The notes under the pieces: model-generated
What the model saw: only the letters and a program-made list of their open reading frames with translations
Told to the model about the DNA's origin: nothing
Database searches by the model: none
Assembly (NCBI GenBank): GCA_003132405.1
Contig: PKXQ01000149.1
Coordinates: 62,001-126,000 of the forward strand
Direction of reading: 5' to 3'
From: Acidobacteriaceae bacterium
Lineage (GTDB): Bacteria > Acidobacteriota > Terriglobia > Terriglobales > Acidobacteriaceae
Length of the DNA stretch: 64,000 nt
Shown: piece by piece, positions 26,580-47,989 of the stretch
How the letters are laid out: each line of letters begins with the position of its first letter
Position numbering within the stretch: the first letter of the stretch is position 1
Position numbers and translations under genes: made by a program

Positions 26580-26719
26580 TTCCCCAGTGACGTAGATTGC
26601 TGCCCACATTCATCGTCACCTCTAACCTGAATAAGCAAGGTCGGAATGTACCAAAACCTAATGCGATGCGTCCACCGAGATGCCATCGCAATGAAATGAT
26701 GACGAGGGAGAAACAGGAA

Positions 26720-27453: not shown

Positions 27454-28140
27454 ATGACAGATACCAATCGCGCAACCTCGACTTCCACTTCGACTGACCA
27501 ATGGACAAGCGTGCAGGCCTATGTGTTGGCAGTGATATGCCTGCTGGTGGGAATCGCCGGCGGCTGGTTTATACGCGGCAGCGAGAGCCCGGCGTCCGCA
27601 GCCGCTCCGGCAGCGAGCGCAACCGCCCCCGCCGGAAGCGCAAATATGGGGGCGCAGGCTCCAACTCCGGCCCAGATGCAGAAGATGGCGGATACGCAGG
27701 CCGCACCGTCGATCGAGAAGCTGAAGGCCGATCCCAAGAACACCGAGCTTTTGGCCAGCATCGGCAATGTGTATTACGACGCCCAGCTCTATCCGACCGC
27801 TATCGACTACTACCAGCGTGTCCTCCAGGTGGATCCCGCCAACACCGGGGTTCGCACCGACATGGCGACCGCGATCTGGTATACGGGAAACCCTGACGGT
27901 GCGATCGCGGAATTCCAGAGGTCGCTTTCTTACGATCCGAATAAGGCCAACACCCTATTCAATCTCGGCGTGGTCGAGTGGCAGGGCAAGATGGACATCG
28001 ACAAGGCGACCGCGACCTGGCAGAAGTTGCTGGATAAGAATCCGAACTACGAGGGCAAAGAAAAAGTTCTGGAACTGATGGCGCAGGCGAAGAAGCACTC
28101 GAGCGTCAAACCAGGTACCCAGGCAAAGCCGCTACAGTAA
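27454..28140 (+). CDS. Membrane-anchored TPR protein (NrfG/CcmI-like), copy 2
   Basis: A 228-residue paralogue of the preceding gene with the same plan: Thr/Ser-rich N-terminus, transmembrane segment (VLAVICLLVGIAGGWFIRG), Ala-rich linker, then TPR units (LLASIGNVYYDAQLYPTAID, DPANTGVRTDMATAIWYTG, DPNKANTLFNLGVVEWQGK). GAAGGAG eight bases upstream of the ATG is an excellent ribosome site. It lies 74 bp after copy 1 with no terminator between and a strong one after it, so the two form an operon that arose by tandem duplication. Confidence 0.8.
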   Translation: MTDTNRATSTSTSTDQWTSVQAYVLAVICLLVGIAGGWFIRGSESPASAAAPAASATAPAGSANMGAQAPTPAQMQKMADTQAAPSIEKLKADPKNTELLASIGNVYYDAQLYPTAIDYYQRVLQVDPANTGVRTDMATAIWYTGNPDGAIAEFQRSLSYDPNKANTLFNLGVVEWQGKMDIDKATATWQKLLDKNPNYEGKEKVLELMAQAKKHSSVKPGTQAKPLQ

Positions 28141-31925: not shown

Positions 31926-33812
31926 CTATTTCTTGATACCAACCGGGACCATACTGGAAGCTTTGACAGAGCCGTTGGGGTTATGCGCGGTCTCGTGACA
32001 GGCCAGCACACAGGTGTTGGTGGCGCGGTTGTAGGTGATAGGCGTGGCTCCATTCTGGGCGACGACATTGACGTCGAAATTCACCAGCCGCTGTCCGCTG
32101 ATGCTTGGGTTGGTGCCTCCCATGCCGTGAGCGGTATGACAAGTCGAACAGGTAAATCCCGCATTGATATGGCTCTGATGCTGGGTGAAACTGGCGTTCG
32201 ACATGATGTTGCTGAGGCTGTGGCACTTGCCGCAGAGCGCGTAAGGACCGTTGACGCTGAGATCGGGATTGCGAAAGAGATTGGTGACCAGCTGGCCGGG
32301 CGCGATGGTCTGGCTGAATTCGTAGCGGCGCTCGAGGATGTGGGTCCACTTCGAACCATGAGGGCCGTTCGGTCCAGGGCCTCCGGATTCGCGATTGTCG
32401 TCGCTGTTGTGGCAGTCAGTGCAGAGGATCTGGGTACCCATGACGCGGCCTGGCGTCAGTCCGTCGAGATACAACATGTTCATCAGCAGACTAGGCTGAG
32501 GCAGCGAGCTATTGCTGACGTGCGTCACCGGATGGCTCGAGGTGGAGTTGATGCTGAATTGGGGAATGATGTTGAGCGGGTCTCCGGCCGACACGGCGCG
32601 CACGGGAAGGTATCCGTAAAGGGCCTGCACGGCTTTGCCGGAGCTGCTGCCGTGGCAGCGGAAGCAGTTCTCATATTGATTGACGACCGGGTTGACGACG
32701 GTCATTCCGTCGGTGGCGCTGATTCCGGTAGAGTCTCGTTGCGACACGCGGACCAGAGGCGGCGGAGGGAAGGTTGAGACCTGAGCCGATCCGTGGCCGC
32801 TGTGGCAGTCGACGCAGGTGGCATGACGATTGTTGTTGAGGAGCGTTGCCTCGGCCGCGTCATGCTGATTGGTCGTGGTCGGAAAAGGGTGGCCGGCCTT
32901 TGGCGAAACATACTCGGCGAAGACGTTCGGAGGCGCGGGCGTGATGTTGGAGCCGCCGTTGTGGCAGGCGAGGCAATCCTGTTCGTTGGGGCCGCGCAGC
33001 AGGCGGGCTGGCCCTTGAGCGTTGTGGGGAGTGTGGCAGGAGATGCATGCGTCCGTCGCCACCGTCGTATAGCTGCCCACATTCGCCTGGGGAGAAAGTT
33101 TGTTTTGCGCGATGGCGTGGGAGCTCGTGGCCCAATCCACCAGCGGATTTACTTTGCCGGCCATTTGCCGCGACGGATCATGGCAGGCGAGGCACATCTG
33201 TCCGCTGGAACTATCGCGCACTAGGAAATTCTCCGAGACGAGATCCTTGGCCTGCACGTGAGCGTTATGACAGGAAGTGCACTCGATGTTGCCCTTGATG
33301 AGGCGGACGGCGCCGGTGGGATCGCTAGTTATGCCCTTCGCAGCTAAAGAGGAAACGAGATCGATGTTGTCTTTCAGCGGTAAGGCGAGCGAGAAAGGAT
33401 GAGACGGTTGTAGATTGCTGCCAAAGATGTCGTAGGCGTACATCGATCCCTGCATGGTTACCTGACCGTAGGCAACGGTGGTGCCGGGAGCGATGGTTCC
33501 GTCGTGACAGGAGAGGCAAAGATTGCTGTCGGCTCCCATGACTGGCTGCACGGCGCGGTTTTTCTCGGTGTCGCTCGTGTAAAGCGTGTAGCTCTGGGTC
33601 GTGAGCTTCTGGTTCCACAGCGGCACGCGGCCGCCGATGCCGTTGTGAGGCTCGTGGCAATACATGCAGAAGTCGGGACGCGCTCCGGTGATGGGAGACT
33701 TGCTGCCCGGGCCGAGATCGTGCACGCCGATTACGTCGCCGGTAAATTGCGCGAGCGAGGTTGCGCTCAGGGCGAGTAGCGCCAGGCACACGAGTAGGAG
33801 CTTCGATCTCAC
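31926..33812 (-). CDS. Secreted 12-haem c-type cytochrome
   Basis: A 628-residue precursor with a signal peptide (LLLVCLALLALSATSLAQ). I count eleven CXXCH motifs (CMYCH, CLSCH, CTSCH, CLACH, CISCH, CLACH, CVDCH, CFRCH, CTDCH, CGKCH, CSTCH) plus a C-terminal CVLACH, a CX3CH variant, giving a likely twelve haems. The N-terminal FCMYCHEPHNG followed by PLWNQ is a frequent pattern in exported multihaem proteins. Long Thr/Ser/Pro linkers separate the haem groups. The start abuts the stop of the upstream NHL gene (shared base 33812), so translation is coupled; porin and NHL genes precede it. A periplasmic or surface electron-transfer role is inferred. Confidence 0.93.
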   Translation of the reverse strand: MRSKLLLVCLALLALSATSLAQFTGDVIGVHDLGPGSKSPITGARPDFCMYCHEPHNGIGGRVPLWNQKLTTQSYTLYTSDTEKNRAVQPVMGADSNLCLSCHDGTIAPGTTVAYGQVTMQGSMYAYDIFGSNLQPSHPFSLALPLKDNIDLVSSLAAKGITSDPTGAVRLIKGNIECTSCHNAHVQAKDLVSENFLVRDSSSGQMCLACHDPSRQMAGKVNPLVDWATSSHAIAQNKLSPQANVGSYTTVATDACISCHTPHNAQGPARLLRGPNEQDCLACHNGGSNITPAPPNVFAEYVSPKAGHPFPTTTNQHDAAEATLLNNNRHATCVDCHSGHGSAQVSTFPPPPLVRVSQRDSTGISATDGMTVVNPVVNQYENCFRCHGSSSGKAVQALYGYLPVRAVSAGDPLNIIPQFSINSTSSHPVTHVSNSSLPQPSLLMNMLYLDGLTPGRVMGTQILCTDCHNSDDNRESGGPGPNGPHGSKWTHILERRYEFSQTIAPGQLVTNLFRNPDLSVNGPYALCGKCHSLSNIMSNASFTQHQSHINAGFTCSTCHTAHGMGGTNPSISGQRLVNFDVNVVAQNGATPITYNRATNTCVLACHETAHNPNGSVKASSMVPVGIKK

Positions 33813-34891
33813 TACATTCCTTCCTTCGGTTTTTTCAAACCAAAATAGTGAAAGACTTGAATGCGGCGGTTATAGGAGTCGACTATGAAAATGCGGTCGT
33901 CGTGGTCGATGAATAATCCCGTGGGCAACTGGAACTCACCCGCGTGGGTGCCTCTTTTGCCGAAGTAATAAAGAAGATCGCCCTGGCGATTGAATACCTG
34001 CACCACTCCCCATAAACCGTCGACGATATACAAATCACCTTCAGAGTCGACGCCGATGCCTTTCGGACGGAAGACGTCGCCGGTGCTGTCCCCGAGCTTA
34101 CCGATGGCGTAGTGAAAGCTGCCGTCGCGGCCGAGCGCCTGGACGCGAAAATTCATGGTGTCAACCACAATCAGATCCGGGCCATCGAGTCGCAGTTCGG
34201 TGGGAAAGTTGAATTCGAGGTTGCCTTCGCCGCGGCCGCCAATGGTTTGCAGGATGCTGCCCTGCATGTCCATCATAAAAATCTTGTCGCGCAGCGTGTC
34301 GGTGACGAAGATGCGTTGCGCGGCGGAATCGACGGCGATTCCGGTGGCGCGCTTGAAGTAGCCTTCGCCGCCTTTTATGCTGCCGATGGCGCGCTGATAT
34401 TTTCCGTCCGAATTAAAGACGAATACCTTGCCCGTCTCCGAGTCAGAGACGTAGATATTGTCCTGGGCGTCGACGGCCACGCACTGTGGCCCGAGCATGG
34501 CATCTTTCCCTTTGTCGCGGCGCTCGATGAACTTATATTTCTGTTGCGCGAAATCAAAAATGTGAACGCCTCCCGCGCCCGGATCGGTGACGATAATGCG
34601 GCCGCGCGAGTCGGTGGCGACGCTGTAGGGGCGAACCAGATTCTTGAAGTCGGGCTCGCCGGCGACGATGTCGACCAGGCGGTTCCAGAAGCCGCGCTTC
34701 GGCTTCACTTCGCGTTCGGAGCCGAAGCTCCGTTCGTAGGTGAGCTTGCGCCCGCCCTCAAGCTCAAGCACCGGAGGACCAGGATCAGGAGCCGTATTAT
34801 TGGTCTTGCGCGAGGCCCATGCAGTAGCGGCGAGCAAAGGCACCAGCAGAATTGCGACCGAACTCAACCTGCGCGCGCTCCGCATCCTCAT
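33812..34891 (-). CDS. Exported NHL-repeat beta-propeller protein, copy A
   Basis: A 359-residue precursor with an N-terminal signal peptide (VAILLVPLLAATAWA). Five to six NHL blades are visible as repeated (I/V)AVD....(I/V)YVSD....V.VF units, for example CVAVDAQDNIYVSDSETGKV, GIAVDSAAQRIFVTDTLRD and GIGVDSEGDLYIVDGLWGVV. No haem or metal motif. NHL proteins commonly accompany multihaem cytochromes in metal-reducing bacteria; a scaffold or docking role is plausible. It is sandwiched between the porin (87 bp upstream) and the 12-haem gene (1-nt overlap), forming one operon. Confidence 0.88.
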   Translation of the reverse strand: MRMRSARRLSSVAILLVPLLAATAWASRKTNNTAPDPGPPVLELEGGRKLTYERSFGSEREVKPKRGFWNRLVDIVAGEPDFKNLVRPYSVATDSRGRIIVTDPGAGGVHIFDFAQQKYKFIERRDKGKDAMLGPQCVAVDAQDNIYVSDSETGKVFVFNSDGKYQRAIGSIKGGEGYFKRATGIAVDSAAQRIFVTDTLRDKIFMMDMQGSILQTIGGRGEGNLEFNFPTELRLDGPDLIVVDTMNFRVQALGRDGSFHYAIGKLGDSTGDVFRPKGIGVDSEGDLYIVDGLWGVVQVFNRQGDLLYYFGKRGTHAGEFQLPTGLFIDHDDRIFIVDSYNRRIQVFHYFGLKKPKEGM

Positions 34892-34978
34892 CTTATTTCG
34901 CTTTCTGCGATTCTCGCCGGCCAGAGTTAGATCCAGACTTAATATCGAATGACGAAATGATTCATCGCCCCTTTAAAA

Positions 34979-36826
34979 TTAAAAGAAGTTGAACCATCGG
35001 GATACTCCAATATAGAACGCCGACACATTCTCCGCCGGCAATCCCGAGGTGCTGAAGCCTTGCACCAGATTGCTGTATCCGCCATTTAAGTACATCTTAC
35101 GGAATTGATACTGAAAAAGCGTGTTGATCTGCTTCGTGTTGTTCCAGGAGGCGATCCCCAACACATTGCTGTTGCTGTCTGCGCGGGCGTAGCTCGCGCT
35201 CAGCGTGAGCCTGCGCATGGGATTGCTGCTTAGCCCAAACGAATAACTGGTGCCGCCAAAAAGAATAAGATTGCCTGCGCCCAGCACCGGTTCCGGGTTT
35301 TGCGTCAGCACCAGGCCGGCTCCGCTTTCGATTCCGTTTCCGTTCGACTTCGAGTAGGAGCCCGTCAAGTTGATCCAGGGCGAATAGGAAACGGAGGCAT
35401 TGTAACTTTGGCTGCTGCTGTCTGTCCCCGCCTCCTGGGTCAATCCTGTTTTGTTGAAGTTGGCCCCCGCGCTCGTTCCGAATTTCCCCCAGCGCCGCCT
35501 GATATTGCCCCCATACCCGTAAGAAGAGGACATGTAAGTGATCAGAATGGTTTGCACGTTCTGCGCATAGTTAAAGAAGACACCTGTCGCCCAGCCGTCG
35601 AATCTCTTGTTGTAGTTGACCGTGCCACTGAATCCCAATACGTTCGCGCTCGAAGTGCTGACCGTATTGTCGGTGAGCGAAAGAGCAGCGTTAAAGTTGC
35701 CGCCGAGCACGACCCGCCCATAGGTCAGGCCGCCGCCGTACGAATCGGATGTATAGCTCTTGCCCAGGAAGGATTGTTGGCGATGATCGACCGAGGCCAG
35801 CGTTTGCAGATTCGGCATCAGCGAATAGCTGGCCATGCTCAATAGATCGAAGGAGTTCGAAGACTGCCCCTGACTCGGCGGCGTAACGATGCCTCCCGTA
35901 CCTACAATGGCCTCGTACAACGAGCCCGTAAGATTATTAGAGTAATCGGTGCTGACCGAAACGTGAAACTTGTTGGTCGGCTGGAAGCTTGCCGTCGCCG
36001 TATAAGTGTCAATCGTGCCGTCGTAGCTGTATCCCGCATAGTCAGAGTCAACATAAGAGCTGTTCATGTTAGCGGAAAATCCCCCGTGAAAGGGAAGTTG
36101 ATGCCCCACCGCGAATCCATATCCGTGGTTGCTGGAGGTCGCCGTCTCCGCCTGTGACGAGCCATCGAGAACCTGCGGAATATCCGAGTGCGACGTTCCA
36201 TCGCTGAAGTAGGCGCTCATGTTGAAGCCCTTCAGCATGTAGGACGACCGAAGTCCGAGCGACTTGTTATCGGTGCTGCCGGTGTCGTCCGAACCGTAGA
36301 TCGAATACTGGTTGTTTCCCATCTGGAAGTTGGCGGTCAGGCTGGGCAAGCCAGGCACCATCGCCGACCAGTTGATGCCGAGGGTTTCGCTGTTGCCACG
36401 AGTGGTGTAGTTGGCCACTCCCGGGATGGCAAAATTGCCCTCGCTGTTGTAAGCCTTGGCAAAGCTGATGGATCCAGGATAATGGCTGCCACCGAAAATC
36501 GAGGCGTTAAGGTTGACGCCGCTGGCGTCGGAGATCGATTGAAAGGCGGAGTTGTCTCGCGCCTGATTCATGAAAGGCGAAACCGTGAAGGAAACAAAGT
36601 TGGGATTGTAGTAAAAACCGGAGAGCGTGCCCGCGCCGCCGAATGCCAGGCTGTGATCGGAGTCGATCTGATTTCCGTAATCACCGTTATATCCCGCCGA
36701 TATGGTGCCGGAGAGGTTGCTGTTCAAGTCGCCGAGTTGCAGTTGCGCCGCTGCCGGCAACGCCAGCAGTGCCATCAGGAGTAGCGCCGCCAGCCCCCAT
36801 CGCGTTTTTCGGAGAACACCCGCCAC
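34979..36826 (-). CDS. Large outer-membrane beta-barrel protein (porin)
   Basis: A 615-residue precursor: signal peptide (ALLLMALLALPAAAQ) then about 590 residues of alternating aromatic/polar strands rich in Gly, Ser, Asn and Tyr, with no cysteines noted, ending in VSRWFNFF, the terminal-Phe signal for BAM insertion. The size would allow roughly 24-28 strands, comparable to MtrB/PioB-type barrels that sheath a multihaem cytochrome. Sequence similarity to MtrB cannot be judged by eye and its N-terminal CXXC is absent. Position at the head of the porin-NHL-12-haem operon supports a porin-cytochrome conduit, but a cellulose- or sugar-specific barrel remains possible. Confidence 0.85.
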   Translation of the reverse strand: MAGVLRKTRWGLAALLLMALLALPAAAQLQLGDLNSNLSGTISAGYNGDYGNQIDSDHSLAFGGAGTLSGFYYNPNFVSFTVSPFMNQARDNSAFQSISDASGVNLNASIFGGSHYPGSISFAKAYNSEGNFAIPGVANYTTRGNSETLGINWSAMVPGLPSLTANFQMGNNQYSIYGSDDTGSTDNKSLGLRSSYMLKGFNMSAYFSDGTSHSDIPQVLDGSSQAETATSSNHGYGFAVGHQLPFHGGFSANMNSSYVDSDYAGYSYDGTIDTYTATASFQPTNKFHVSVSTDYSNNLTGSLYEAIVGTGGIVTPPSQGQSSNSFDLLSMASYSLMPNLQTLASVDHRQQSFLGKSYTSDSYGGGLTYGRVVLGGNFNAALSLTDNTVSTSSANVLGFSGTVNYNKRFDGWATGVFFNYAQNVQTILITYMSSSYGYGGNIRRRWGKFGTSAGANFNKTGLTQEAGTDSSSQSYNASVSYSPWINLTGSYSKSNGNGIESGAGLVLTQNPEPVLGAGNLILFGGTSYSFGLSSNPMRRLTLSASYARADSNSNVLGIASWNNTKQINTLFQYQFRKMYLNGGYSNLVQGFSTSGLPAENVSAFYIGVSRWFNFF

Positions 36827-37141
36827 CTTCCACCCACTTCCTGCTGTCCCGGACAGCAGCCATTACCTTTCAACCTGTCCCCTGGCCTCCGCGGAACGGC
36901 GCCCGGCGCGCGGCGCAATTGCGAGGGAACGCCAGCCTTATCCTGAGCAAGGAAATGCACGTTCGCCGCCAATATGGGAATCTGCTAACTTATTGTTACT
37001 AAAGTAGATAGGAGACGACGAAGGGCGTTATCGGGCGGAGATTGAGTTATATAACCCAGCCAAATTGAGGAGCCTAGGCATTTGGCGCAAGGGGGTTGGC
37101 GAGAGAGTTCTCAGAAGCCCTATCATAATCGGTTTTGGGCA

Positions 37142-37163
37142 GGGCACGGCTTTCAGCCGTGCC
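37142..37163. repeat. GGGCACG-type short palindrome, copy 2
   Basis: Stem GGCACGGCT / AGCCGTGCC with a TTC loop; same family as 30152-30172. Confidence 0.55.
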
Positions 37164-37233
37164 GCAAATGGGCAGTTAAGGACAGGGGCTTTGCAGTTCG
37201 CTGAACAACTCCAATTCGATCGGGCCTCGGGAA

Positions 37234-37255
37234 GGGCACGAGTTTTACTCGTGCC
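37234..37255. repeat. GGGCACG-type short palindrome, copy 3
   Basis: Stem GGCACGAGT / ACTCGTGCC with a TTT loop: constant outer GGCACG, different inner pairs that still match. Confidence 0.55.
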
Positions 37256-37450
37256 GTATGTCCTCGAAAGTGTGTCCGCGCTTTAGCGCCTGAGGCCCAC
37301 TTCTAGCCAATTGCGAGAGTTTTTCAGCAAACTGTTTAGCCCCTGAGGGGAGCCGCTAGCTTACTTCCCACGTTCATCATGAGACGGTGTCTCAGTTCTC
37401 AGCGGAAACCAGTTTGGTTTCCACTGAAAACTGATAGCTGACAGCTGGTC

Positions 37451-38491
37451 CTAAAGTTCTTCCACCTTAGCGCTCTTGCGAAGCCGCTTGTCCAGAGACG
37501 CTCTCACTTCCTCGACCTTTCTCTTTTGCAGTTCCTTCTGCAACGAGTCCTTTACTTCGGCAAAGGTTCTTTTCCCAGCCGGGATGTGCTGGTTCAAGCG
37601 GACGATGGTATAGGCCTGATCAAGCTGGAGGATGTCGGTGATCTCGCCCGGTTTTATGGCTAGCAGCGCTTGTACTACTTCCGGCGCGAGCTTGGCGCGA
37701 TCGACCGCCTTGTGGTCTCCCATCATCACGCGGTAGTCGTCTTCCGAGATTTTTTCCGCCAGCATGCCAAATTGCTCGTAGCCGTTAGTCGCTTTCGCCT
37801 GCTTCAGGCCATCGTCGGCGCGCTTGCGCAGTTCCTTCAAATTGGCCGGCGTGGGCTTCTCCGGGGGCAGAAAAGAAATGGTCTGAAAGGCAAAGGACTC
37901 GGGATACTCAAAACGCGCCGGGTTCTTGTCATAATAGGCGCGGACTTCGGCCAGGGAGACGGCGGATTTGTTATCGACCTGCGCCTTAAGCGCGGCGTCG
38001 ATCAGCAAGGAGCGCCGAATCTTCTCATGCAGAAATTTCTCCGAGCCCTTGCACTCTGAATTCAGAAACTGCTGGTATTCACTCGAACTCTTAAATTGTC
38101 CACGGAAGTCGGATTCCGCTTTTTGCAGCTTGGCTGCCGGTATGGTCACTTGGCGCCGCAGCGCATCCTGGTAAACCAGTTCCTCGAAGACAATCATCTT
38201 CAGCGCGCCTTGGCGGATCTGCGGAGCCAACTCCGCGGGAACCTGGCCATTGTGCTGGGCGGCGTAAGGAAACAGGGTGTACATCTCGCGCTGTAGATCG
38301 CGATCGGTCAGCACGGTTCCGTTCACGCGAGCCACCGGCTTATCTGTAATCTGAACCGCTGCGTTCGACGGGGGCTGGGTCGCCACGGCATTCTGCGTGT
38401 GCGAGACGGCCATTTGCTGAGCGGCCGCCGGGAGCGTCATTGTTACGAGTGCGGCCAGAACCAGGGCGATTATTGATCGTTGATGCTTCAT
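37451..38491 (-). CDS. Periplasmic peptidyl-prolyl isomerase (PpiC/SurA-like)
   Basis: A 346-residue precursor with signal peptide (IALVLAALVTMTLPAAAQ). The N-terminal SurA-type chaperone region starts at VARVNGTVLTDRDLQREM (about residue 53). The parvulin-like half contains FQTISFLPPEK and VVQALLAIKPGEITDILQ then YTIVRLNQHIPAGKRTFAEV. The central parvulin block is more divergent than in PrsA, so isomerase activity is likely rather than certain. It lies 135 bp downstream of the tetrahaem cytochrome on the same strand, beyond that gene's terminator. Folding of the neighbouring barrel and cytochromes is a plausible task. Confidence 0.85.
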   Translation of the reverse strand: MKHQRSIIALVLAALVTMTLPAAAQQMAVSHTQNAVATQPPSNAAVQITDKPVARVNGTVLTDRDLQREMYTLFPYAAQHNGQVPAELAPQIRQGALKMIVFEELVYQDALRRQVTIPAAKLQKAESDFRGQFKSSSEYQQFLNSECKGSEKFLHEKIRRSLLIDAALKAQVDNKSAVSLAEVRAYYDKNPARFEYPESFAFQTISFLPPEKPTPANLKELRKRADDGLKQAKATNGYEQFGMLAEKISEDDYRVMMGDHKAVDRAKLAPEVVQALLAIKPGEITDILQLDQAYTIVRLNQHIPAGKRTFAEVKDSLQKELQKRKVEEVRASLDKRLRKSAKVEEL

Positions 38492-38578
38492 AAAGCTAAT
38501 CCTCTTTTACTAATTCCGGTTTAACTAATTCTCGCTAAACCAATCGTACTTATACCAAATCGTACTCAAAACCGGGTC

Positions 38579-38607
38579 AAAAAAAAGGGGAGAGTTTTTC
38601 TCTCCCC
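38579..38607 (-). terminator. Intrinsic terminator of the tetrahaem cytochrome gene
   Basis: On the minus strand GGGGAGAG / CTCTCCCC with an A5 loop is followed by a run of eight T, 20 bp past the cytochrome stop codon. Confidence 0.85.
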
Positions 38608-38626
38608 TGTGGTGACAGCCGACAGC

Positions 38627-39505
38627 TTAGAAAGTCGTCGGGATGTTGTAGCTGCCGTTCGACTCGTTCGCCTCTCCACCATGGCACTCGCGGCAGAATT
38701 GCGCGGTCTGGTTCGATCCAGCGGTTCCGCTACCCGGGTTGTAGGGGCCGATTACGAAGAACATCGTCTTGTAGTACCCAGTCGGCAAACCACTCTTCGG
38801 GCCGTTGGTAACGCTGACAACGTTCATCAAGTGCTGGTTGTGGCAGCTCGTGCAGGTAACCACAGCCGTGTTGTTGTAAGCGGTTGGGGACACGAAGAAG
38901 CCATAGTTCTTTACGAACTGCGAGGAATTCGGGCCGGTCATCGCGATCGTGCCGTTGGTCTCGACGCAATCCCAATTCCACTGGCCGCCGCAGGAAACGG
39001 TGGCATTCAAGCCCACCGGGTGCGTGGCGAGGTAGCCCTCGGAGTTCGCGCCGCCGCCGAGCAGCGTCGGAATCGCGTTCCAGGTTCCGTAAGTCGCTGG
39101 CAGCGTTTCATAGACCGCGTCCTTCATCATTGCGCCCGTAGCATAGTTGCCGTCATGGCAGCTGAGGCAGGTTAGGAGGCCGTTCACATCCGGCGTTCCA
39201 GCGGCCATCGTGGCCGGCAGAACTTCGGTGTAGCCCGTGCTTCCATTGGTGCTGCCAGTGATGATGGTCTTGCCGAACAGCGCGCCCACGTCCTGGCCCC
39301 ACAGAATCGAGGTGCCACCCGTGAGGTTGCCGGACTTGTTGGCGCCGTTGCCGCTGGCGCCGTTGTGTGGTGCGTGACAGGCCGCGCAACCGCGACCGTA
39401 ATTGAGGTGAGCGCCGAGGACGTCAGACGTCGGCGGCCCGATCTGGGCCGCAGCAAATGCCGCCATGGCCAGGATCATCAGAATGACTACCAGACTCTTT
39501 TTCAT
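38627..39505 (-). CDS. Secreted tetrahaem c-type cytochrome
   Basis: A 292-residue precursor with signal peptide (VVILMILAMAAFAAAQ). Four CXXCH motifs are present: CAACH followed by APHNG near residue 41, CLSCH near 112, CTSCH and CRECH near the C-terminus. Two further cysteines (VSCGGQWNWDC) may form a disulfide. Long Gly/Thr/Asn-rich linkers separate the haems, so haem density is low (one per about 65 residues). The N-terminus resembles that of the 12-haem protein. The AAGGAG-like purine run (TTAAGGAGAATG) precedes the start. It has its own terminator, so may be expressed strongly as a single gene; a surface or filament role is possible but unproven. Confidence 0.92.
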   Translation of the reverse strand: MKKSLVVILMILAMAAFAAAQIGPPTSDVLGAHLNYGRGCAACHAPHNGASGNGANKSGNLTGGTSILWGQDVGALFGKTIITGSTNGSTGYTEVLPATMAAGTPDVNGLLTCLSCHDGNYATGAMMKDAVYETLPATYGTWNAIPTLLGGGANSEGYLATHPVGLNATVSCGGQWNWDCVETNGTIAMTGPNSSQFVKNYGFFVSPTAYNNTAVVTCTSCHNQHLMNVVSVTNGPKSGLPTGYYKTMFFVIGPYNPGSGTAGSNQTAQFCRECHGGEANESNGSYNIPTTF

Positions 39506-40037
39506 ACATTCTCCTTAAGGAATTATGATTATTCAGTTCTTACTTTTTTTTGCCTTGCCTTTGTTGCTTGTTGCTTTTCCGGAACTCTCGATTACCACAA
39601 AGTCGTTGGAGCAATTCTTGAATCTCCAACCCTCAATGAATGCACGAGGGTAGCCGTAGTGCGAAGTAACACGCAGGTTCCAGGCAGCTTTGTAAGTAAT
39701 TGGAAAATAGCTACTTATTGATGCAAGCTGCAAAGATCCGACGCGCTGGACGGAGCTTGAGCCGAATCCCTTGGGCTTTCTGCCACAGGGGGTAGGTGAA
39801 AAAACCCACGCAGCCGATGCGAGCGATCTATTGTGTTTTGCAACAGTTACGCGCACCGTTCCACCTTGAGCCTCCCGCTACCGTCCAAGCGCAGTAAACG
39901 TGCAAACGGGCGCAGCGGTCAGTGACCTGCTTCTCAAACGATGGTGATAAAAGTCACTTCTGGTGGCACCAACATATACATATAGAGGAGTAAACAAAAA
40001 CAGGAGAGAGGGACGGGCGTCCGCCTCCCTAGGTCAG
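39506..40037. other. Gene-free upstream region of the tetrahaem gene
   Basis: About 530 bp without a credible gene; it contains one CRP-type palindrome (39943-39958) and an A/T-rich promoter-like patch (ACATATACATATAG, about 39970-39984). Confidence 0.45.
39943..39958. promoter_or_regulatory. CRP-type palindrome GGTGATAAAAGTCACT
   Basis: GTGA-N6-TCAC site about 440 bp upstream of the tetrahaem start, unusually far for direct control of that gene; no closer plus-strand gene exists. Confidence 0.5.
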
Positions 40038-40206
40038 TGCTGAAAAACGCACCTTTGTTCTTGCTTTTGGGTGGCGCAGCGGTTCACCGCTCTTGCACTT
40101 GCCTTTGGGTGGCGCAGCGGTTCACCGCTGCGATAAAAGACCTGTTTCCAATGACGGCTTCAGCCGCTGAGGGTAACTGCCGCGCATCGCCTGAGTTTTT
40201 CAGCAA
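40038..40206. repeat. MITE-like element, copy 2
   Basis: Same ends (TGCTGAAAAACGC / GAGTTTTTCAGCA) as 30207-30338, but the inner GGTGGCGCAGCGGTTCACCG module is duplicated, giving 169 bp. It lies between the tetrahaem promoter region and the end of the NHL gene. Confidence 0.75.
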
Positions 40207-40249
40207 TTTGAACTGGACGGACGGGCGGCTCTCCAGTTGAACGAGATAT

Positions 40250-41623
40250 TTAACTGGGCGGCGTCGCGGCGGGCTTCTGAGCCGGAGTATCGGCGGGCTT
40301 GGTTGCTGGCGCCGCGGCTGCTGGTTTCTGTGCCGGCGTGTCGGCCGGTTTCGCGGTGTCGGCCGCTTTCGTGGTGTCGCCTGACGCTTCGCGGCGCGCC
40401 TCGGCCTTGGCTTTCAGATCCGCCTCGCGCTTCGTCTTTTCGGCGGCGGCCTCATCGTCGGTGACGTAGCGGAACATCTGCATACGTCCAGGGTATTGTT
40501 CGGTGGTGAAGACGCGATTCTGTTTGTCGATAGCCACGCCCACCAGCGCTTTGAACTGGCCAGGGCCATTGGCGTGAGTGTCGCCGATGTAGGTCAACAA
40601 CTGTCCCTCGCGATTGAATACCTGCAGGCGATCCTGATACTCATCGGCGACCCAGATGTGGTCGTCGCAATCAATCGCGATGCCCTTGGGCCGGAAGAAG
40701 AACCCGGGACCGTCGCCAGCCTTTCCAAAGGTGCTGATGAATCCGCCCTCGGGATCGAAGATTTCCACGCGGCTATTCAAGGTGTCGGTGACATAGACAT
40801 TCTCGTCCTTGTCGAGAGCGACGTTGGTGGGCGCGCTAAAGTCGCCGTTCGTGGTGAGCGAGTGCTTCTTGGCGGGAGGCACAGGAGTTCCAATGTGGCG
40901 CAGCAATTTCAAGCTGTCAGCGTCATAGACCTGAACAATGTCCTGCTGTTCGTCGACCACATAGAGGAGGCGGTTCTCGTTGTCGATGGCGAGTCCGACC
41001 GGATCGACCAGGCCCTCGACAATCTGGCCTTCGACTTCGTGTTTGGGATTGAAGATCAGCACGTGCCGCATCTTTCCGTCGGAGACGAAAAGGCGGTCGC
41101 CGTCGTCGATCGCGAGGCCATTGATCCATTGAAAGTGGGCGTCGGAGCCATTCTTGATGAGCGTGGCGTCGTGCGTTTCCGTGTTGAAGATGAAGACCGC
41201 TCCGACTTTTTGGTCGGCCACGTAGACGAGACCTTTGGAGTCAATCGCGATGCCGTAGGGGCCGAGCAGTTGCCAGGGAAAGGTCTTGAGCTTGTCGACG
41301 TTGTCTTCCTGCTTGGCGCCCGCCACGCGATCCATCCAACCCTGCTTCTTCTTGGTGGTTGCGGCGGGAGCGCGGTCGATCTTCATGCCTGCGTAATAGC
41401 TGAGCCACTTGACGCGGGCAATGTTGGGTGGGTTCGGCCAGACCAACTTGGAAATATCAATGTCGAGTTTGGGCGGCTCCGGAGGGGGAGCAGCGGCCTT
41501 CTTCTTTTTATCCTTATCACTGCCGTACATGGAGACCGGCGAAGCCAGCGCCAGAGCGAACAGGATCAAAACAGCAGCCAGCGCCCAGCTATTGCGATTC
41601 GATTTGGATGAAAGCGCGAACAT
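40250..41623 (-). CDS. Exported NHL-repeat beta-propeller protein, copy B
   Basis: A 457-residue precursor. Start: ATG 41623 with CAGGAG upstream; sequence further 5' in frame overlaps the 16-haem gene and is not protein-like. Signal/anchor segment ALAAVLILFALALASPVSM, a Lys-rich KDKKKKAAAPPPE linker, then NHL blades (YGIAIDSKGLVYVADQKVG, GLAIDDGDRLFVSDGKMRH, GLAIDNENRLLYVVDEQQD, VALDKDENVYVTDTLNSRV, GIAIDCDDHIWVADEYQDR). The C-terminus is a low-complexity Ala/Lys/Pro tail with repeats of KPADTPAQKPAA. It lies 17 bp after the 16-haem gene, clearly the same operon, mirroring the NHL/12-haem pair. Confidence 0.88.
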   Translation of the reverse strand: MFALSSKSNRNSWALAAVLILFALALASPVSMYGSDKDKKKKAAAPPPEPPKLDIDISKLVWPNPPNIARVKWLSYYAGMKIDRAPAATTKKKQGWMDRVAGAKQEDNVDKLKTFPWQLLGPYGIAIDSKGLVYVADQKVGAVFIFNTETHDATLIKNGSDAHFQWINGLAIDDGDRLFVSDGKMRHVLIFNPKHEVEGQIVEGLVDPVGLAIDNENRLLYVVDEQQDIVQVYDADSLKLLRHIGTPVPPAKKHSLTTNGDFSAPTNVALDKDENVYVTDTLNSRVEIFDPEGGFISTFGKAGDGPGFFFRPKGIAIDCDDHIWVADEYQDRLQVFNREGQLLTYIGDTHANGPGQFKALVGVAIDKQNRVFTTEQYPGRMQMFRYVTDDEAAAEKTKREADLKAKAEARREASGDTTKAADTAKPADTPAQKPAAAAPATKPADTPAQKPAATPPS

Positions 41624-41640
41624 TTTCTTATCTCCTGTTT

Positions 41641-43113
41641 CTAATTCCCGGATGTCGTATCCCGCATGTTGATTCGGTTCTTGTGGCACGTGTCGCAAAA
41701 CGCCATGTTGTTCTGCTGGTCTTTCACGAGCAGATCGGCATGCGCCGAAGCGTGCGGCTGATGGCAGCTCAGGCAAGCGAGGTGAGTCTTGACCCTGCTG
41801 ATATTTGCCGGATCCATCACGTCTCCGACGGGATGATTTGCCACCGGATGGCCGAGCCCGTAGCGCAGCGGCAGAATCGCCACCTGATTTTTCTGATAGT
41901 AGTCCTCCGGCAGCTTCACCTTGCCGTCGAAGATCGTCAGCACATGTTCCGCTTCCAGTTTCTGCGGCACCGAGTCAGGGCCGTGGCATTCGAGGCAAAG
42001 CGCATTTCCTTTTGCCCGCAACAAGTGATCGTTCTCGCCGCCGTGCGGCGTGTGGCAAGTGGCGCAGCCCTGCGTGAATGCCGGCTGATGGTGCACGGAT
42101 TTTTTCGCGAGATCGGCAATGTCGCTGTGGCAGCCTAGGCAAATGTCGACCGCATTCGTCTTCGGCAGGCCGGGCTGCCGGCTGGCATGCGGACTGTGAC
42201 AGTCCGTGCAATCGCCAGCGGCTCCCGGATGCTGAACCTTAGCCTTCTCGATCAACTCAGCCTTGTCGGAGTGGCAGGTCACGCAGAGATCCTTGACATT
42301 GGCTTGCGTCAGGACGACCTTGCCATCCTTCGCCGGAGCGTGGCAGGTGCTGCATCCGTCTTTGTCAGCAAAAGGTGGATGCAGGAATTTAGCCATCAGC
42401 TTAGGAGCGGCAGACTCGTGCGGATCGTGGCAGGTCAGGCAATCCGCCGTAGCGAAAGGCTGGTTCTGGTGCGCCTTTTGCAGATCGGCGCTCTTGGCAT
42501 CATGGCAATCCAGGCAGAGCGCCGGCGTCGCTTTGGTCAAATGGAAATCGAACTCCGTCTTTCCAATCTCGCCCGTCTTGTGCGTCGTGTGGCAAGTCTC
42601 GCAGCCCATGTCGAGGGCGGCGTGGCGGCTGCCGTTCTTCCCCAAATCCTTCGTCCCAACTTCATGGCAGGTGAGGCAAAGATTATCTTTCTTGTCGCCC
42701 GACGTCGCCTTCAGCAGCTGAAACTTGTTGTCAGAGGTATGCGGGTCGTGGCACTTCAGGCAGTCGCGTACCGCAGGTGGATGCACATGGCCTTTAATCT
42801 GCGTCGCGTCCTTATCGGCATGGCAGCTCAGACAAACTTTGTAAGGGACGGCGGAAATCAGTGTTACGTGGGTTGTGTCTTTGTTAGTCCGGACCTGATG
42901 GCAGCTCAGGCAACCCGTCGCAATTGCAGAATGAACGAACTTGCCCTTCGATTTATCTTCGTGGCATTCGAGGCACTTGGCCGCATCGACGTTCTTATCC
43001 AATGGAACCGGATGAACCGCGGCAGAGGCGCGCGAGAGCAGCAGCGCAACCAACAGAAACAAAAGAAAAATGACAACCGCAAGAGGCCGGTCGCGATGAT
43101 CTGCGACCTTCAT
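41641..43113 (-). CDS. 16-haem c-type cytochrome of the doubled-CXXCH type
   Basis: About 490 residues with an N-terminal signal or anchor (VVIFLLFLLVALLLSRASA). I count sixteen CXXCH motifs at roughly 20-35-residue intervals, starting CLECH, CLSCH, CLSCH, CLKCH and ending CLECH, CLSCH, CDTCH. They alternate CLxCH and GCxTCHxPH, the doubled-CXXCH pattern of NrfB/cytochrome c554-like chains. A block near residue 390 (LPEDYYQKNQVAILPLRYG) breaks the array before the last two haems. Start: ATG 43113 chosen; GTG 43146 is in frame. An NHL gene follows in operon; resB lies divergently upstream with two CRP-type sites between. Likely a wire-like periplasmic or membrane-attached electron carrier. Confidence 0.94.
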   Translation of the reverse strand: MKVADHRDRPLAVVIFLLFLLVALLLSRASAAVHPVPLDKNVDAAKCLECHEDKSKGKFVHSAIATGCLSCHQVRTNKDTTHVTLISAVPYKVCLSCHADKDATQIKGHVHPPAVRDCLKCHDPHTSDNKFQLLKATSGDKKDNLCLTCHEVGTKDLGKNGSRHAALDMGCETCHTTHKTGEIGKTEFDFHLTKATPALCLDCHDAKSADLQKAHQNQPFATADCLTCHDPHESAAPKLMAKFLHPPFADKDGCSTCHAPAKDGKVVLTQANVKDLCVTCHSDKAELIEKAKVQHPGAAGDCTDCHSPHASRQPGLPKTNAVDICLGCHSDIADLAKKSVHHQPAFTQGCATCHTPHGGENDHLLRAKGNALCLECHGPDSVPQKLEAEHVLTIFDGKVKLPEDYYQKNQVAILPLRYGLGHPVANHPVGDVMDPANISRVKTHLACLSCHQPHASAHADLLVKDQQNNMAFCDTCHKNRINMRDTTSGN

Positions 43114-43716: not shown

Positions 43717-45207
43717 ATGCCCGCAGATGCGCGCTCATTTATTCATAAAATTTGGCAAACCATCGCCTCCATCAAGACCGGCGTAGTGCTTTTGATCCTG
43801 GTCGTGATTCTCTCGGCGGTTGGAACGGTCATTCTGCAGCGGCCCGCCACCGACTCCGACGAAATGCAGAACGCTTATTCGCCGCACATGCTCCGCTTCT
43901 TGGACACACTCGGGTTGACCGATGTATTTCACGCCTGGTGGTTCCTCGGCCTCATGGCGCTCGTCAGCCTCAGCATTCTAGCGGCGTCCATCGATCGTTT
44001 TCCCAACTCGTGGCGCTTCTTCTCGCGCCCTTACAAATATCCCGATGAAACTTTTCGCCGCGCTTCCCGTCCCCAGAAATCAATCGCCATCGCGGACGAA
44101 GAAACAGGATTGGTAGCGGCGGAGCGTGCGCTGCATTCTCTCGGATTGAAACCCGAGCGAGTGGTGCGCGAAGATCACTTCGGAATTTTCGCGGAACGCC
44201 ATCGCGTCTCCGAGCTAGCCGTATACATCGTGCACGCCAGCCTCCTTCTCATTTTCTTCGGCGCGCTCGTCGACGGACTTTGGGGCTGGAATGGTTCTCT
44301 CACTCTCAATGACGGACAAACTTCCAACATCGTCGAGTTGCGCGACGGCACCACCCGCACTCTCCCCTTTGCCATTCGTTGCGACGAAGCCGGACAGGAG
44401 AACTACAAAGACGGCACGCCGAAAAAGTGGTGGTCGAAGCTGGCCGTGGTTCGAGATGGACAGGATGTGCAGAAAAAGGAAATTGTTGTCAACGACCCGC
44501 TCCTTTATAGCGGCGTTCGCTTTTATCAGGCGAGTTACGGATCCAACGGCAAGGTTCAGAAGTTCAGCCTGCTTGCCACTCCGAGCAGCGGCTCTGGCGA
44601 AAAGCAGGAAATTGGCATGGCGCTGAACGACAGCGTTGCACTCGACGCCGATACCAGCGTGCGCTTCGTCGAATTCATCCCCGACTTCGCGGTGCGCGAC
44701 GGGCAGGTCTACAAAAAATCAAACTACTTGGACAATCCCGCCGCCCACCTGGTCGTGACTTCGAAAAAAGCTGGCAAGGATTTTGATGTTTGGCTTCCGC
44801 AAATGGGCGACGTCACCGACAACTCCAAGGCACCCTATCAATTTCAGCCTACCGATTTAAAGATGGGCCACTTCACCGGCTTGCAAGTCTCGCACGAGCC
44901 CGGGCAGTGGGGAGTGTGGTCCGGCGTAGTGCTGATGGGCATCGGTCTGGCCTTGGTGTTTTACGTAGTACACATGCGCTTTTGGATGGTGCCGGTTTGC
45001 GATCCAAAAACCGGCAAGTACTCGCTGTGGATCGGTGGCAGCGCGAACCGCAACAAGGATGCCTTTGATCAGCGCTTCAATGACCTGGTCGCGTTGGTGG
45101 AAGAAAATCTAAAGGCCATTCCTGCCGACATTTCGCGCGAAGCAATCGAGAGTGTCGCCGGTAACCAAAGCTGCGAACTGTCACAGCGAACCGACTTAGC
45201 GAATTGA
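43717..45207 (+). CDS. resB: Cytochrome c biogenesis protein ResB (Ccs1)
   Basis: One of the two proteins of System II cytochrome c synthase; with ResC/CcsA it moves haem across the membrane and attaches it to CXXCH. The 496 residues show the typical N-terminal helices (SIKTGVVLLILVVILSAVGT), a helix near residue 75 (WFLGLMALVSLSILAASID), a third near 170, a large exported domain and a final helix (GVVLMGIGLALVFYVVHM) followed by a cytoplasmic tail. GGGGAGAAG precedes the ATG. It is followed by resC after 36 bp. Location next to multihaem cytochromes fits its function. Confidence 0.94.
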   Translation: MPADARSFIHKIWQTIASIKTGVVLLILVVILSAVGTVILQRPATDSDEMQNAYSPHMLRFLDTLGLTDVFHAWWFLGLMALVSLSILAASIDRFPNSWRFFSRPYKYPDETFRRASRPQKSIAIADEETGLVAAERALHSLGLKPERVVREDHFGIFAERHRVSELAVYIVHASLLLIFFGALVDGLWGWNGSLTLNDGQTSNIVELRDGTTRTLPFAIRCDEAGQENYKDGTPKKWWSKLAVVRDGQDVQKKEIVVNDPLLYSGVRFYQASYGSNGKVQKFSLLATPSSGSGEKQEIGMALNDSVALDADTSVRFVEFIPDFAVRDGQVYKKSNYLDNPAAHLVVTSKKAGKDFDVWLPQMGDVTDNSKAPYQFQPTDLKMGHFTGLQVSHEPGQWGVWSGVVLMGIGLALVFYVVHMRFWMVPVCDPKTGKYSLWIGGSANRNKDAFDQRFNDLVALVEENLKAIPADISREAIESVAGNQSCELSQRTDLAN

Positions 45208-45243: not shown

Positions 45244-46653
45244 ATGGCACACGCAACGGTAGAACAGCAGCAACCGGCAACCGGCACAACCCTCGTCGTA
45301 CTGGTCGGACTCGCCGTTACCTTCTTGCTGTTCATGGCATTTCTGAACGTGGTGAAAAGCGGCAACATCGTGAATGAGAGCAACCTGCTCTTTGCCGCAC
45401 TGATCTTTTACTCTGGCGCCGGAGCGCTCTATCTCGGATTTGGCGTTACCGGTACACCTTCCTACTTGAAGTTTGCATCGTTCTCCACCTCGCTCGGATT
45501 GGTCGCGAATACGGCAGCCATCGCCCACCGCTGGTATGAAAGCGGACACGCGCCATTTTCCAGCGTCTACGAAATGCTGCTCAGCTTCGTGTGGACGCTC
45601 GCGGTGCTCACGCTGGTCGCCGAGAAAAAATATGGCGTCAAAGTAATTGGCACCGTCACCATGCCGGTCGCAATCGTCGGCGTAGTGTTGATGCAGTTGC
45701 TGCGTACTGACGTGCATCCCCTGGTTCCCGCGCTGCAATCGACCTGGCTCCATGTCCACGTCACGCTGGCCATGCTGGCCTATGCTGCTTGCGCGCTCAG
45801 CTTTGCCCTCGCCATGATGTTTCTGATTCAGGACCACATCAAGACGGAGACCGTCCTCGCCGTCACCAGCGCCAGCACACTCGCCGTTTATGCGAGCATC
45901 GTGCTCACCCGCTTCGAAAAATGGGGTGGATTGAATCTGGTGGCGTGGAATCCGGAAAGTAAGTCGGAAGTCTTTATCTCCAAGGGAGTGCGTTTGTTCG
46001 TGGTCGTTCCCGACCTTGGATGGCTCTTAACACTCACGCTTCTGGTGGTGGCGGCGCCGCTCGTTCTTTACGGACTGGCGCGTTGGAAGAAGACCCATAG
46101 TGACACCTTGCTGACGCTCGCCAACCGCGCCGTCTTTCTCAGCATTCTCCTCCAGGTAATGACGGCGATTATGTTTGTGTTGCGCGCCCGTGATGGCCGT
46201 TATCCGTCGCTCGACGCAGATGGGCTATTCCCCACAACCCTCGCCGCCAGTCCTTTTATACTGTCGGGTTTGGTGGGCGGCGTTTTTATCTCTCTCCTCT
46301 ATCTGCTGCTTCTGTGGCGCCGTCCGGATTTAGAGCGATCGCTGCCCAGCTCCGACAACCTCGACCGCATCACTTATAAAACGATCTGTCTCGCCTTCCC
46401 CCTTCTTACTCTAATGATCGCCTCTGGCGCCTACTGGGCAAACCAGACTTGGGGCTCCTACTGGAGCTGGGATCCGAAAGAGACCTGGGCGGCAATCACC
46501 TGGCTCGTGTACGCTCTATATCTACACATGCGCATCACTCGCGGATGGCGTGGCCGTCGCGCCGCTTACTTCGCCATCGGCGGCTTTGCGGTCGTGATGT
46601 TCACCTTCTTCGGTGTGACTTACCTGTTGCCGGGACTTCACGCATATGCCTGA
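45244..46653 (+). CDS. resC: Cytochrome c biogenesis protein ResC (CcsA)
   Basis: Haem-handling subunit of System II. The tryptophan-rich WWD signature ([20 protein letters not shown]) lies at about residues 400-419, with flanking periplasmic-side His residues ([14 protein letters not shown] near 95 and HMRITR near 425) as expected for haem ligation. At 469 residues it is longer than minimal CcsA proteins; the N-terminal additional helices are consistent with larger variants. GGGAGG lies upstream of the ATG. Its end overlaps the kinase gene by 8 nt, indicating an operon resB-resC-kinase. Confidence 0.94.
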
Positions 46654-47989
46654 GCGCCCGCAATTCGAGACCGCAAAGCTGGGGCCTACGGAACAAATAG
46701 GCCACACCTATGATGCGCCCGTCCGTCCTCCACCTGAGCGACGGCCGGACGATAACATCAACTTATCGCCGGATTCGTCGAAGGAACGACCGTCGGCTAA
46801 ACTATCGTCGTCTACACGATTGTCGTCTACACGAATTTCGTTGACGGGATCGTCGCCTGCGCGGCCATCGCCAGTACAATCAGCACGTGCAGTTCCGTCA
46901 TCGCCAGAGGACTTCCGTATGAGTTCCGTTCGCGTTAATTGGCAACTCAAGGCGATCTTGCCGGTGGCGTTCGTCCTTCTGGCCGGGCTGTTGCTCTTCA
47001 CCCTCGCAACCGTATCTTTGCGCGATCCCGAGCGCCACGCCGTATTAATGGTTGCGGGAGCGGGAGCCGTTGCTATCTGCATCGCCTCCATCGGGGCGCT
47101 TGCCTATTTCATTCACCGGCCCATGGTCGAATTGCAGGAAAAGATCGCACTGGTCAGCGAAGGCAACCTCCACGTCTCTGTCACCTTTGATCGGCGCAAT
47201 GACGAAATCGGCGACCTCGGCCGCAACTTCAACCACATGGTCGAGCAGCTACGCGAGAGCCGCGATGAGATCGAGTCGCTGCATCGCACCCAGATGTCAC
47301 GCGCCGAGCACCTGGCCACGCTCGGCGAATTGGCCGCTGGCCTCGCCCACGAGATTCGCAATCCGCTTGCCGGAATCGCCGGAGTCATCGAAATCATCGG
47401 CCGCGATCTGCCCTCGACCAGCCCGGCTCGCGCCGTGGTAAAAGACGTCCGTCAGGAGATCGCCCAGATCAACCGCATCCTCACCGATCTTCTCGAGACC
47501 GCGCGACCTCACCCACCCCGGATCTGCCGCAGCAACCTCAACACCACAGTCGAACACGCGGTAATGCTGGCGCGCCAGCAAGTGTTGTCAAAGCCAATCA
47601 AGATTGAATTCCAGAAGTCCGCCGACTTGCCTGAGGTCGAGCACGACAGCGATCAGATTCACCAGGTCCTTCTCAACCTGCTCCTCAACGCCGTCCAAGC
47701 CACCGAAGGCGAAGCCACCATCCGCGTCGAGATCGGTTCGCGAGACAACTGCGCCATCGTGCTCGTTAGCGACACCGGCCGAGGCATCGCCGCGCAACAC
47801 CTCGCCCACATCTTCCGCCCCTTCTACACCACCAAGGGCAACGGCACCGGACTCGGCCTCTCGCTGGCGCGTCGTATCGTCGAAGAACACCACGGCCGCA
47901 TCGACGTAACGAGCACAGTTGGAAAAGGCAGTACCTTTGAAGTAGTGCTGCCCTTCGAAATGCCGCGCTCGCCAGTCGCCGATTCCTAG
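46646..47989 (+). CDS. Membrane sensor histidine kinase (NtrB-like)
   Basis: A 447-residue kinase. After a Pro/Ser-rich, probably dispensable N-terminal stretch of about 90 residues, two transmembrane helices ([19 protein letters not shown] and [20 protein letters not shown]) flank a very short periplasmic loop, then come a HAMP domain, a HisKA domain with His235 ([16 protein letters not shown]) and a HATPase_c domain with N (LLLNAVQA), G1 (VSDTGRGI) and G2 (GTGLGLSLA) boxes. Translation may begin at the internal ATG 46919 ([11 protein letters not shown]). The small sensor loop suggests sensing in or near the membrane. Operon linkage with resBC suggests monitoring of cytochrome or redox state; its cognate regulator is unknown. 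Confidence 0.93.

Follow-up and report, generated by a model that had tools for sequence, protein, structure and literature searches.

For OmcS, the hexahaem nanowire cytochrome of Geobacter, the osc operon has been proposed to supply proteins for folding (OscH), secretion (OscE-G) and morphology (OscD) (PMC13194489; PMC12977616). Similar kinds of protein come together in other systems. OetABI comprises a barrel with cytochromes in the periplasm and at the surface, along with homologues of nanowire proteins (PMC10553843), the core of a SEEP-SRB1 operon encodes a six-bladed propeller, 16-haem and 26-haem cytochromes and a prolyl isomerase (PMC5539420), and a Geoalkalibacter locus that encodes MtoA-like and OmcE-like proteins together with two NHL proteins has been proposed to serve iron oxidation (PMC12016550). 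Here we describe a locus from an Acidobacteriaceae bacterium, on a stretch of 64,000 nucleotides (assembly GCA_003132405.1, contig PKXQ01000149.1, positions 62,001 to 126,000), hereafter the window. Its seven genes, all on the minus strand at 31926-43113, encode three cytochromes, two NHL propellers, a PpiC/SurA-type isomerase and a barrel (Table 1). With a probability of about 0.66, we read it as the acidobacterial form of a nanowire-plus-conduit locus of the omcE type. A preliminary description of this DNA had named the seven genes on one strand with resBC divergent, and all were found as described; it had overlooked the relation of the tetrahaem cytochrome and of the N-terminus of the 12-haem cytochrome to OmcE, as well as the MtrA-like identity of the 16-haem protein.

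The tetrahaem cytochrome appears to belong to the OmcE type, as a diverged family. A profile built from 18 tetrahaem sequences aligned with an OmcE profile of 11 sequences over 105 columns (hhalign probability 98.7, E-value 4.2e-16). The protein has exactly four CXXCH motifs and four other histidines, in the sequence order found in OmcE, and these four histidines would sit at the positions of the second haem ligands of OmcE and are the predicted ligands here. The motif order, which was written as a pattern after both families had been viewed and is a description rather than a blind test, was present in 19/19 tetrahaem family members and 0/2000 segment shuffles. It occurred in none of the 17 16-haem proteins, in two of the 19 12-haem proteins and in 35 of the 60 four-CXXCH frames from OmcE loci and from L049, a barrel-bearing region of another family. 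Database searches gave 4130 matches to the tetrahaem protein at E <= 1e-3, the weaker of which may be other cytochromes; the best 120 of these 4130, 74-90% identical, were inspected and all had four CXXCH motifs, accompanied by four other histidines in 91, five in 26, six in two and three in one. Furthermore, in L049 the tetrahaem slot holds an OmcE homologue (E-value 4.7e-11), and on an Acidobacteria contig (L081) a 38% OmcE homologue lies between a propeller and a candidate barrel. We propose from these comparisons that the tetrahaem protein is a filament (nanowire) subunit. More than one tetrahaem match was seen in genomes G002 (L044), G014, G019, G021 and G025 (L034), some on other contigs; several of the extra matches are fragments at contig ends, and the multiplicity is reminiscent of the omcS/omcT duplication.

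A second link to OmcE lies in the 12-haem cytochrome, residues 8-212 of which match 7tfs_A (E-value 1.3e-12), an entry that we take to be OmcE. The three cytochromes of the cluster carry 16, 4 and 11 CXXCH motifs, the last having one extra C-x3-CH (CVLACH). Thus the earlier count of 12 haems for this protein, and of 32 for the locus, stands only if the non-standard motif is included; by CXXCH alone the protein has 11. The 12-haem protein has a lone cysteine before its haem motifs, at residue 9 in a hydrophobic stretch after Leu-Leu-Val, with no lipobox as judged by eye. Neither the 16-haem nor the tetrahaem protein has a cysteine before its first haem motif.

On sequence grounds, the 16-haem cytochrome is an MtrA-like multihaem wire, with 16 instead of 10 haems. 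Its best PDB match by phmmer was 6r2q_A (E-value 1.5e-16), from an entry titled 'Structure of the Mtr complex' whose chains A and B are presumably MtrA and MtrB, and it scored 172.4 bits against NCBIfam TIGR03508 (DmsE/MtrA), under the cut-off of 192.2. Its CXXCH motifs are spaced 21-29 residues apart, except for one gap of 74. We propose that it is a trans-barrel or periplasmic wire. The barrel itself had no Pfam or NCBIfam match. Structure prediction of the barrel alone gave a model of middling confidence with 28 strands (predicted local distance difference test score, pLDDT, 69; predicted template modelling score, pTM, 0.49), compared with 26 strands in MtrB. The first Foldseek match was MtrB (6r2q_B, E-value 1.5e-11; next match 3.7e-9), with template modelling (TM) scores of 0.51/0.49 and a root-mean-square deviation (rmsd) of 11.2. 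A C-terminal phenylalanine is present in all 116 of the barrel homologues of at least 580 residues among the 120 listed, and 112 of these 116 have no cysteine after residue 40. The locus shares with MtrCAB/Pcc conduits an MtrA-like multihaem protein and a large predicted barrel; unlike them, it has neither an MtrB-type CXXC nor, as judged by eye, a lipoprotein MtrC. The porin plus multihaem-cytochrome plan put forward earlier is supported by the MtrA-like 16-haem protein, the Foldseek ranking of MtrB (which is not in the first 50 rows of VIA-align) and the conserved linkage described below.

The arrangement of the cluster is not due to chance, because the seven genes are all present, with order and strand unchanged, in 15 of the 20 regions compared from relatives. 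These regions represent 20 of the 25 relatives in which the barrel was matched (G009, G014, G018, G019 and G023 were left out). Among the 15, the 12-haem gene is cut by the contig end in L030 and the tetrahaem gene is doubled in L044. Of the remaining regions, L043 and L046 are truncated at contig ends and L034 is rearranged. L040 carries five of the genes, and a different contig of its genome bears the 16-haem gene; L049 lacks an adjacent PpiC gene and encodes a 7-haem protein at the position of the 16-haem one. A ResB homologue follows beyond the 16-haem gene in 11 of the 20 regions; L030, L031 and L038 extend further beyond that gene, yet no ResB homologue was found there. At genome-search thresholds of 1e-3 (barrel), 1e-10 (tetrahaem) and 1e-60 (16-haem), the barrel was detected in 26 of 61 genomes, counting that of the window. 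The tetrahaem protein was present in 23 and the 16-haem protein in 24 of these 26, and the 35 genomes lacking the barrel have neither (Fisher p = 6.9e-14 and 5.5e-15, respectively, ignoring relatedness). The barrel genomes without the tetrahaem protein are G007 (contig end), G009 (a barrel fragment at a contig end) and G055 (the genome of L049); those without the 16-haem protein are G009 again and G055, which has the 7-haem homologue. The preliminary description had held that a specific nutrient porin, with no predicted cytochrome fit and no conserved linkage in relatives, would speak against its reading; linkage is found, and an unrelated nutrient porin standing beside the cytochromes by chance is exceedingly improbable. 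TonB-type receptors and other porins do head the VIA-align rows for the barrel model, but the family search found no plug or TonB-receptor family in the protein, and the conserved order and co-occurrence contradict a chance neighbourhood; we rejected this explanation. Across the phylum, 10 of 396 genomes (own genome included) matched the barrel profile at 1e-10; the seven strong matches (<= 2.1e-107) all lie in the window's family and the three others are partial and weak. The cluster is therefore patchy, and its strong form is mostly a trait of one family. Close homologues carry the names Terriglobales, Candidatus Korobacteraceae, Candidatus Sulfotelmatobacter and Terracidiphilus.

The plan of the locus is shared well beyond this family. 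A scan with OmcE gave 52 loci, among them ones from Geobacter, Desulfuromonadaceae, Rhodocyclales, Aromatoleum, Gallionellaceae and Nitrospirae and on two Acidobacteriota contigs, and resB and ccsA were both present in 14 of the 52. The usual order in Geobacter-type loci is resB, ccsA, one or two cytochromes of 8-10 haems whose best match is our 16-haem model, NHL, OmcE, often a second NHL, and a candidate barrel; these candidates were called solely from their length, a hydrophobic N-terminus and an aromatic last residue. For example, L068, L069, L071, L075 and L087 have, on one strand, resB-ccsA, 9- and 8-haem cytochromes with the 16-haem model as best match, NHL, OmcE, NHL and a candidate barrel. 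The window has resB-ccsA, an MtrA-like protein, propeller, OmcE type, propeller and barrel in common with these loci. It differs from them in the 16 haems of its MtrA-like protein, its built-in PpiC gene, the added OmcE-like 12-haem cytochrome, its diverged tetrahaem protein (292 residues) and a barrel of 615 residues that is weakly similar to theirs (about 710-780). Thus the 'distinct type' of electron transfer system suggested earlier was too strong a claim. The missing CXXC, one of the two features on which it had been based, is real, as the barrel has no cysteine and hence not the N-terminal CXXC that we take to be the MtrB motif. However, CXXC is likewise missing from all 23 candidate barrels listed, and therefore its absence does not set the window barrel apart from that lineage.

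The other feature, two built-in propellers, is also present, but propellers are usual beside OmcE-type cytochromes. A same-strand NHL gene was the immediate neighbour of 70 of 87 OmcE-type genes, and lay within two genes of 76, in a sample that includes 11-haem and cut genes and comes from loci chosen for OmcE, many of them related. The 11 without NHL nearby are mostly in betaproteobacterial and gammaproteobacterial loci. Conversely, 65 of 67 NHL genes adjoin a cytochrome, and the Geoalkalibacter locus also has two NHL proteins alongside its OmcE homologue (PMC12016550). In a tree of 90 propellers, NHL1 and NHL2 of the window fall in different groups, according to partner type. The label 'followed by a 9-12-haem OmcE-type gene', carried by 20 of 68 rows, changed twice on the tree, compared with a shuffled mean of 17.4 and none of 500 shuffles as low; the 68 rows remain after removal of eight whose label came from a cytochrome cut by a locus end and of 14 with no OmcE-type gene next downstream, several deep forks are weak, long branches were flagged and the shuffling ignores relatedness. 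This sorting suggests that the propellers are partner-specific, and we propose that NHL2 is the partner of the tetrahaem protein and NHL1 that of the 12-haem protein. Elsewhere in the tree, six very similar clusters (L097, L100, L104, L109, L110 and L116) come from metagenome-assembled genomes of Gammaproteobacteria and from one such genome of Acidobacteriota (Polarisedimenticolaceae). Each has a propeller and a 24-haem protein (18 haems in L097), and those on contigs that extend far enough also have a 5-haem OmcE-type gene and a 10-11-haem protein. Their propellers are separated by very short distances in the tree, suggesting recent transfer or misbinning. A contig labelled Bacillus (L117) carries 10-, 12-, 6- and 8-haem cytochromes and a propeller.

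The companions of the tetrahaem gene also resemble the published osc genes, the likeness being one of description and gene kind. Shen and colleagues are said to have described, in 2025, OscH as a prolyl isomerase, OscD as propeller-like and OscEFG as channel-like. With the kinds so assumed, isomerase and propeller genes adjoin a nanowire-type cytochrome in the window as they do in osc (GSU2500-2493 of G. sulfurreducens), where a nanowire cytochrome stands with folding, secretion and morphology genes much as we propose for the window; the window cytochrome is tetrahaem, unlike OmcS. The PpiC and NHL searches in Geobacter-type genomes did not single out the osc locus. The PpiC query gave 25 matches in five such genomes, and of eight regions examined around some of them, seven had no OmcE/NHL cluster. 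The exception was L134 of Geobacter sp. OR-1, with PpiC near NHL, OmcE-type and 7-haem genes. For NHL, six matches were obtained in the L1geo genome. Two of them are those of L075, and the best lies in a second OmcE-type cluster (Geobacter sp. L1geo, L136, 7404-10505: NHL, 4-haem OmcE-type, 7-haem and 3-haem), which was not recognisable as an osc locus. Clusters of the L134 and L136 types stand beside the omcE locus proper in the same genomes. The likeness to OetABI and to the SEEP-SRB1 operon is likewise one of description; OetB is described as a lipoprotein, a point of difference from the window (PMC10553843), and the 26-haem protein has no counterpart in the window cluster (PMC5539420).

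The gene content, homologies, conserved order, co-occurrence, and propeller adjacency and sorting described above are consistent with the following scheme, in which polymerisation, a barrel-cytochrome complex, localisation, helper roles and the direction of electron flow are predicted. Electrons from the periplasm would be received by the MtrA-like 16-haem cytochrome; this protein, placed in or against the barrel of 28 predicted strands, would take them across the outer membrane. At the surface, the 12-haem protein would hand them, via its OmcE-like N-terminal module, to filaments of the tetrahaem protein that may reach distant acceptors, for example Fe(III) minerals or humics. ResB and CcsA would aid haem attachment, the PpiC/SurA-like protein, a proposed folding helper, would keep the loop-rich cytochromes foldable, and each propeller would act as a cognate assembly, export or capping factor, NHL2 for the tetrahaem and NHL1 for the 12-haem protein. 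Direction is not readable from the locus, and the same machine might run inward, taking up electrons from Fe(II) or reduced humics. OmcE-type loci do occur in Gallionellaceae contigs, and the Geoalkalibacter locus has been proposed to serve iron oxidation (PMC12016550); we give inward flow only a slim chance.

Several observations weigh against a nanowire-plus-conduit locus. The tetrahaem protein has no direct phmmer match in the PDB, its profile alignment with OmcE spans 105 columns only, and its AlphaFold monomer model was of such low confidence (pLDDT 37.7) that it was set aside. No lipoprotein surface cytochrome of the MtrC kind was seen, by eye, in the cluster. The barrel model is itself middling (pLDDT 69, pTM 0.49, rmsd 11.2 to MtrB), and the first 50 VIA-align rows lack MtrB; the barrel profile is weakly similar (probability 50) to the candidate barrels of Geobacter omcE loci and shows no detectable likeness to that of L081. 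Finally, eight Rhodocyclales-type loci, with OmcE-type genes, PpiC and a candidate barrel judged by length and ends, have no gene with the 16-haem model as best match; therefore a barrel need not accompany an MtrA-like wire. These loci would also fit a barrel that serves as an export pore for OmcE-type cytochromes, with the 16-haem protein as a separate periplasmic wire, comparable to OscE, OscF and OscG, proposed as secretors of OmcS (PMC13194489). We consider such a pore decidedly unlikely, as the 16-haem protein is present in 24 of 26 barrel genomes (the exceptions being the G009 fragment and the 7-haem homologue of G055) and in none of the 35 others, and MtrB was first in Foldseek. The tetrahaem results bear instead on a conventional Mtr/Pcc-type conduit, in which the tetrahaem and 12-haem proteins would be monomeric terminal reductases at the surface, supplied with electrons by the 16-haem protein in the barrel, without any filament. 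MtrA-like and MtrB-like parts are both present, the relation of the tetrahaem protein to OmcE is by profile only, and relatives of nanowire proteins need not polymerise, OmcS homologues of unknown function being mentioned in one report (PMC12977616). However, the haem motifs and spare histidines follow the OmcE order, additional tetrahaem copies occur in some relatives (cf. omcS/omcT), and an isomerase and a propeller are, on our assumption of their kinds, tied to OmcS nanowires in another report (PMC13194489), which together make a filament-free conduit rather unlikely.

Table 1. Features of the locus and its divergent neighbours, with positions in the window.
Feature	Position	Strand	Basis
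16-haem c-type cytochrome, MtrA-like	41641..43113	-	16 CXXCH; phmmer to PDB; haem spacing
NHL propeller 2 (NHL2)	40250..41623	-	PF01436 1.5e-24
Tetrahaem cytochrome, OmcE type, 292 residues	38627..39505	-	4 CXXCH; hhalign to OmcE profile
PpiC/SurA-type peptidyl-prolyl isomerase	37451..38491	-	Rotamase_2 7.1e-17, SurA_N_3 2.3e-10
Outer-membrane beta-barrel, 615 residues	34979..36826	-	28 predicted strands, C-terminal NFF, no Cys
NHL propeller 1 (NHL1)	33812..34891	-	PF01436 4.1e-22
12-haem cytochrome, OmcE-like N-terminal module	31926..33812	-	11 CXXCH + CVLACH
ResB, cytochrome c maturation	43717..45207	+ (divergent)	PF05140 4e-84
CcsA/ResC, cytochrome c maturation	45244..46653	+	PF01578 4.8e-47
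Histidine kinase after ccsA, possible regulator	46646..47989	+	HisKA/HATPase_c

The cluster proteins have N-termini that resemble signal sequences by eye. The NHL1 and 12-haem genes share one base, and NHL2 probably does not overlap the 16-haem gene, because the only ATG near its start is at 41623. Gaps of 744 bp between NHL2 and the tetrahaem gene (39506-40249) and of 624 bp between PpiC and the barrel gene (36827-37450) suggest about three predicted transcription units; these long gaps before the tetrahaem and barrel genes are possible sites of separate promoters. Divergently, ResB presumably represents System II of cytochrome c maturation, and in the relatives L032, L033 and L041 ccsA is followed by a frame homologous to the window histidine kinase. 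A pair of tetratricopeptide repeat (TPR) genes at 26597-27379 and 27454-28140 (+), similar to the CcmH/CycH TPR domain below the cut-off, may be an additional accessory for cytochrome maturation. Both genes have homologues close to the cluster in eight of the 20 regions from relatives (L031, L032, L033, L036, L041, L042, L045 and L047), and one adjoins the 7-haem gene in L049. The stretches 28478-30119 (+) and 30364-31900 (-) each look like a single gene split across two frames, with a PMT_2 match in one piece only. In relatives, homologues of about 490-540 residues stand intact at similar places, and the window copies are probably pseudogenes or assembly errors.

In summary, the component types of this locus are known and its plan is shared with Geobacter-type loci; what appears new, within limited access to the literature, is the acidobacterial form with its wire of 16 haems, the diverged OmcE family and the way in which propellers sort by partner. 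No description of the acidobacterial locus was found in the literature searched, access being too limited to establish its absence from print. Even in Geobacter, the attachment of cytochrome filaments to the cell and their assembly are unsettled, and the locus brings together candidates for the wire and its base, for the conduit and for the assembly helpers. Tentatively, and with more doubt than confidence, the whole might be a single charging-and-assembly unit for OmcE-type filaments, with the 16-haem wire running through the 28-strand barrel, the 12-haem protein as the filament base whose OmcE module docks the tetrahaem polymer onto the conduit, and, for each OmcE-fold cytochrome, a separate co-inherited propeller by which it is loaded, capped or started. 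If this is true, the pairing with propellers would hold as a general rule for the assembly of OmcE-type nanowires in different phyla. Furthermore, the locus may bear on iron cycling by Acidobacteriota. In a study of Arctic peat, Acidobacteriota were considered possible Fe reducers on the strength of decahaem cytochromes, a 16-haem homologue was noted in Koribacter versatilis and OmcE genes were not found (PMC3669403); a diverged OmcE-type protein such as that described here could be what such OmcE searches miss.

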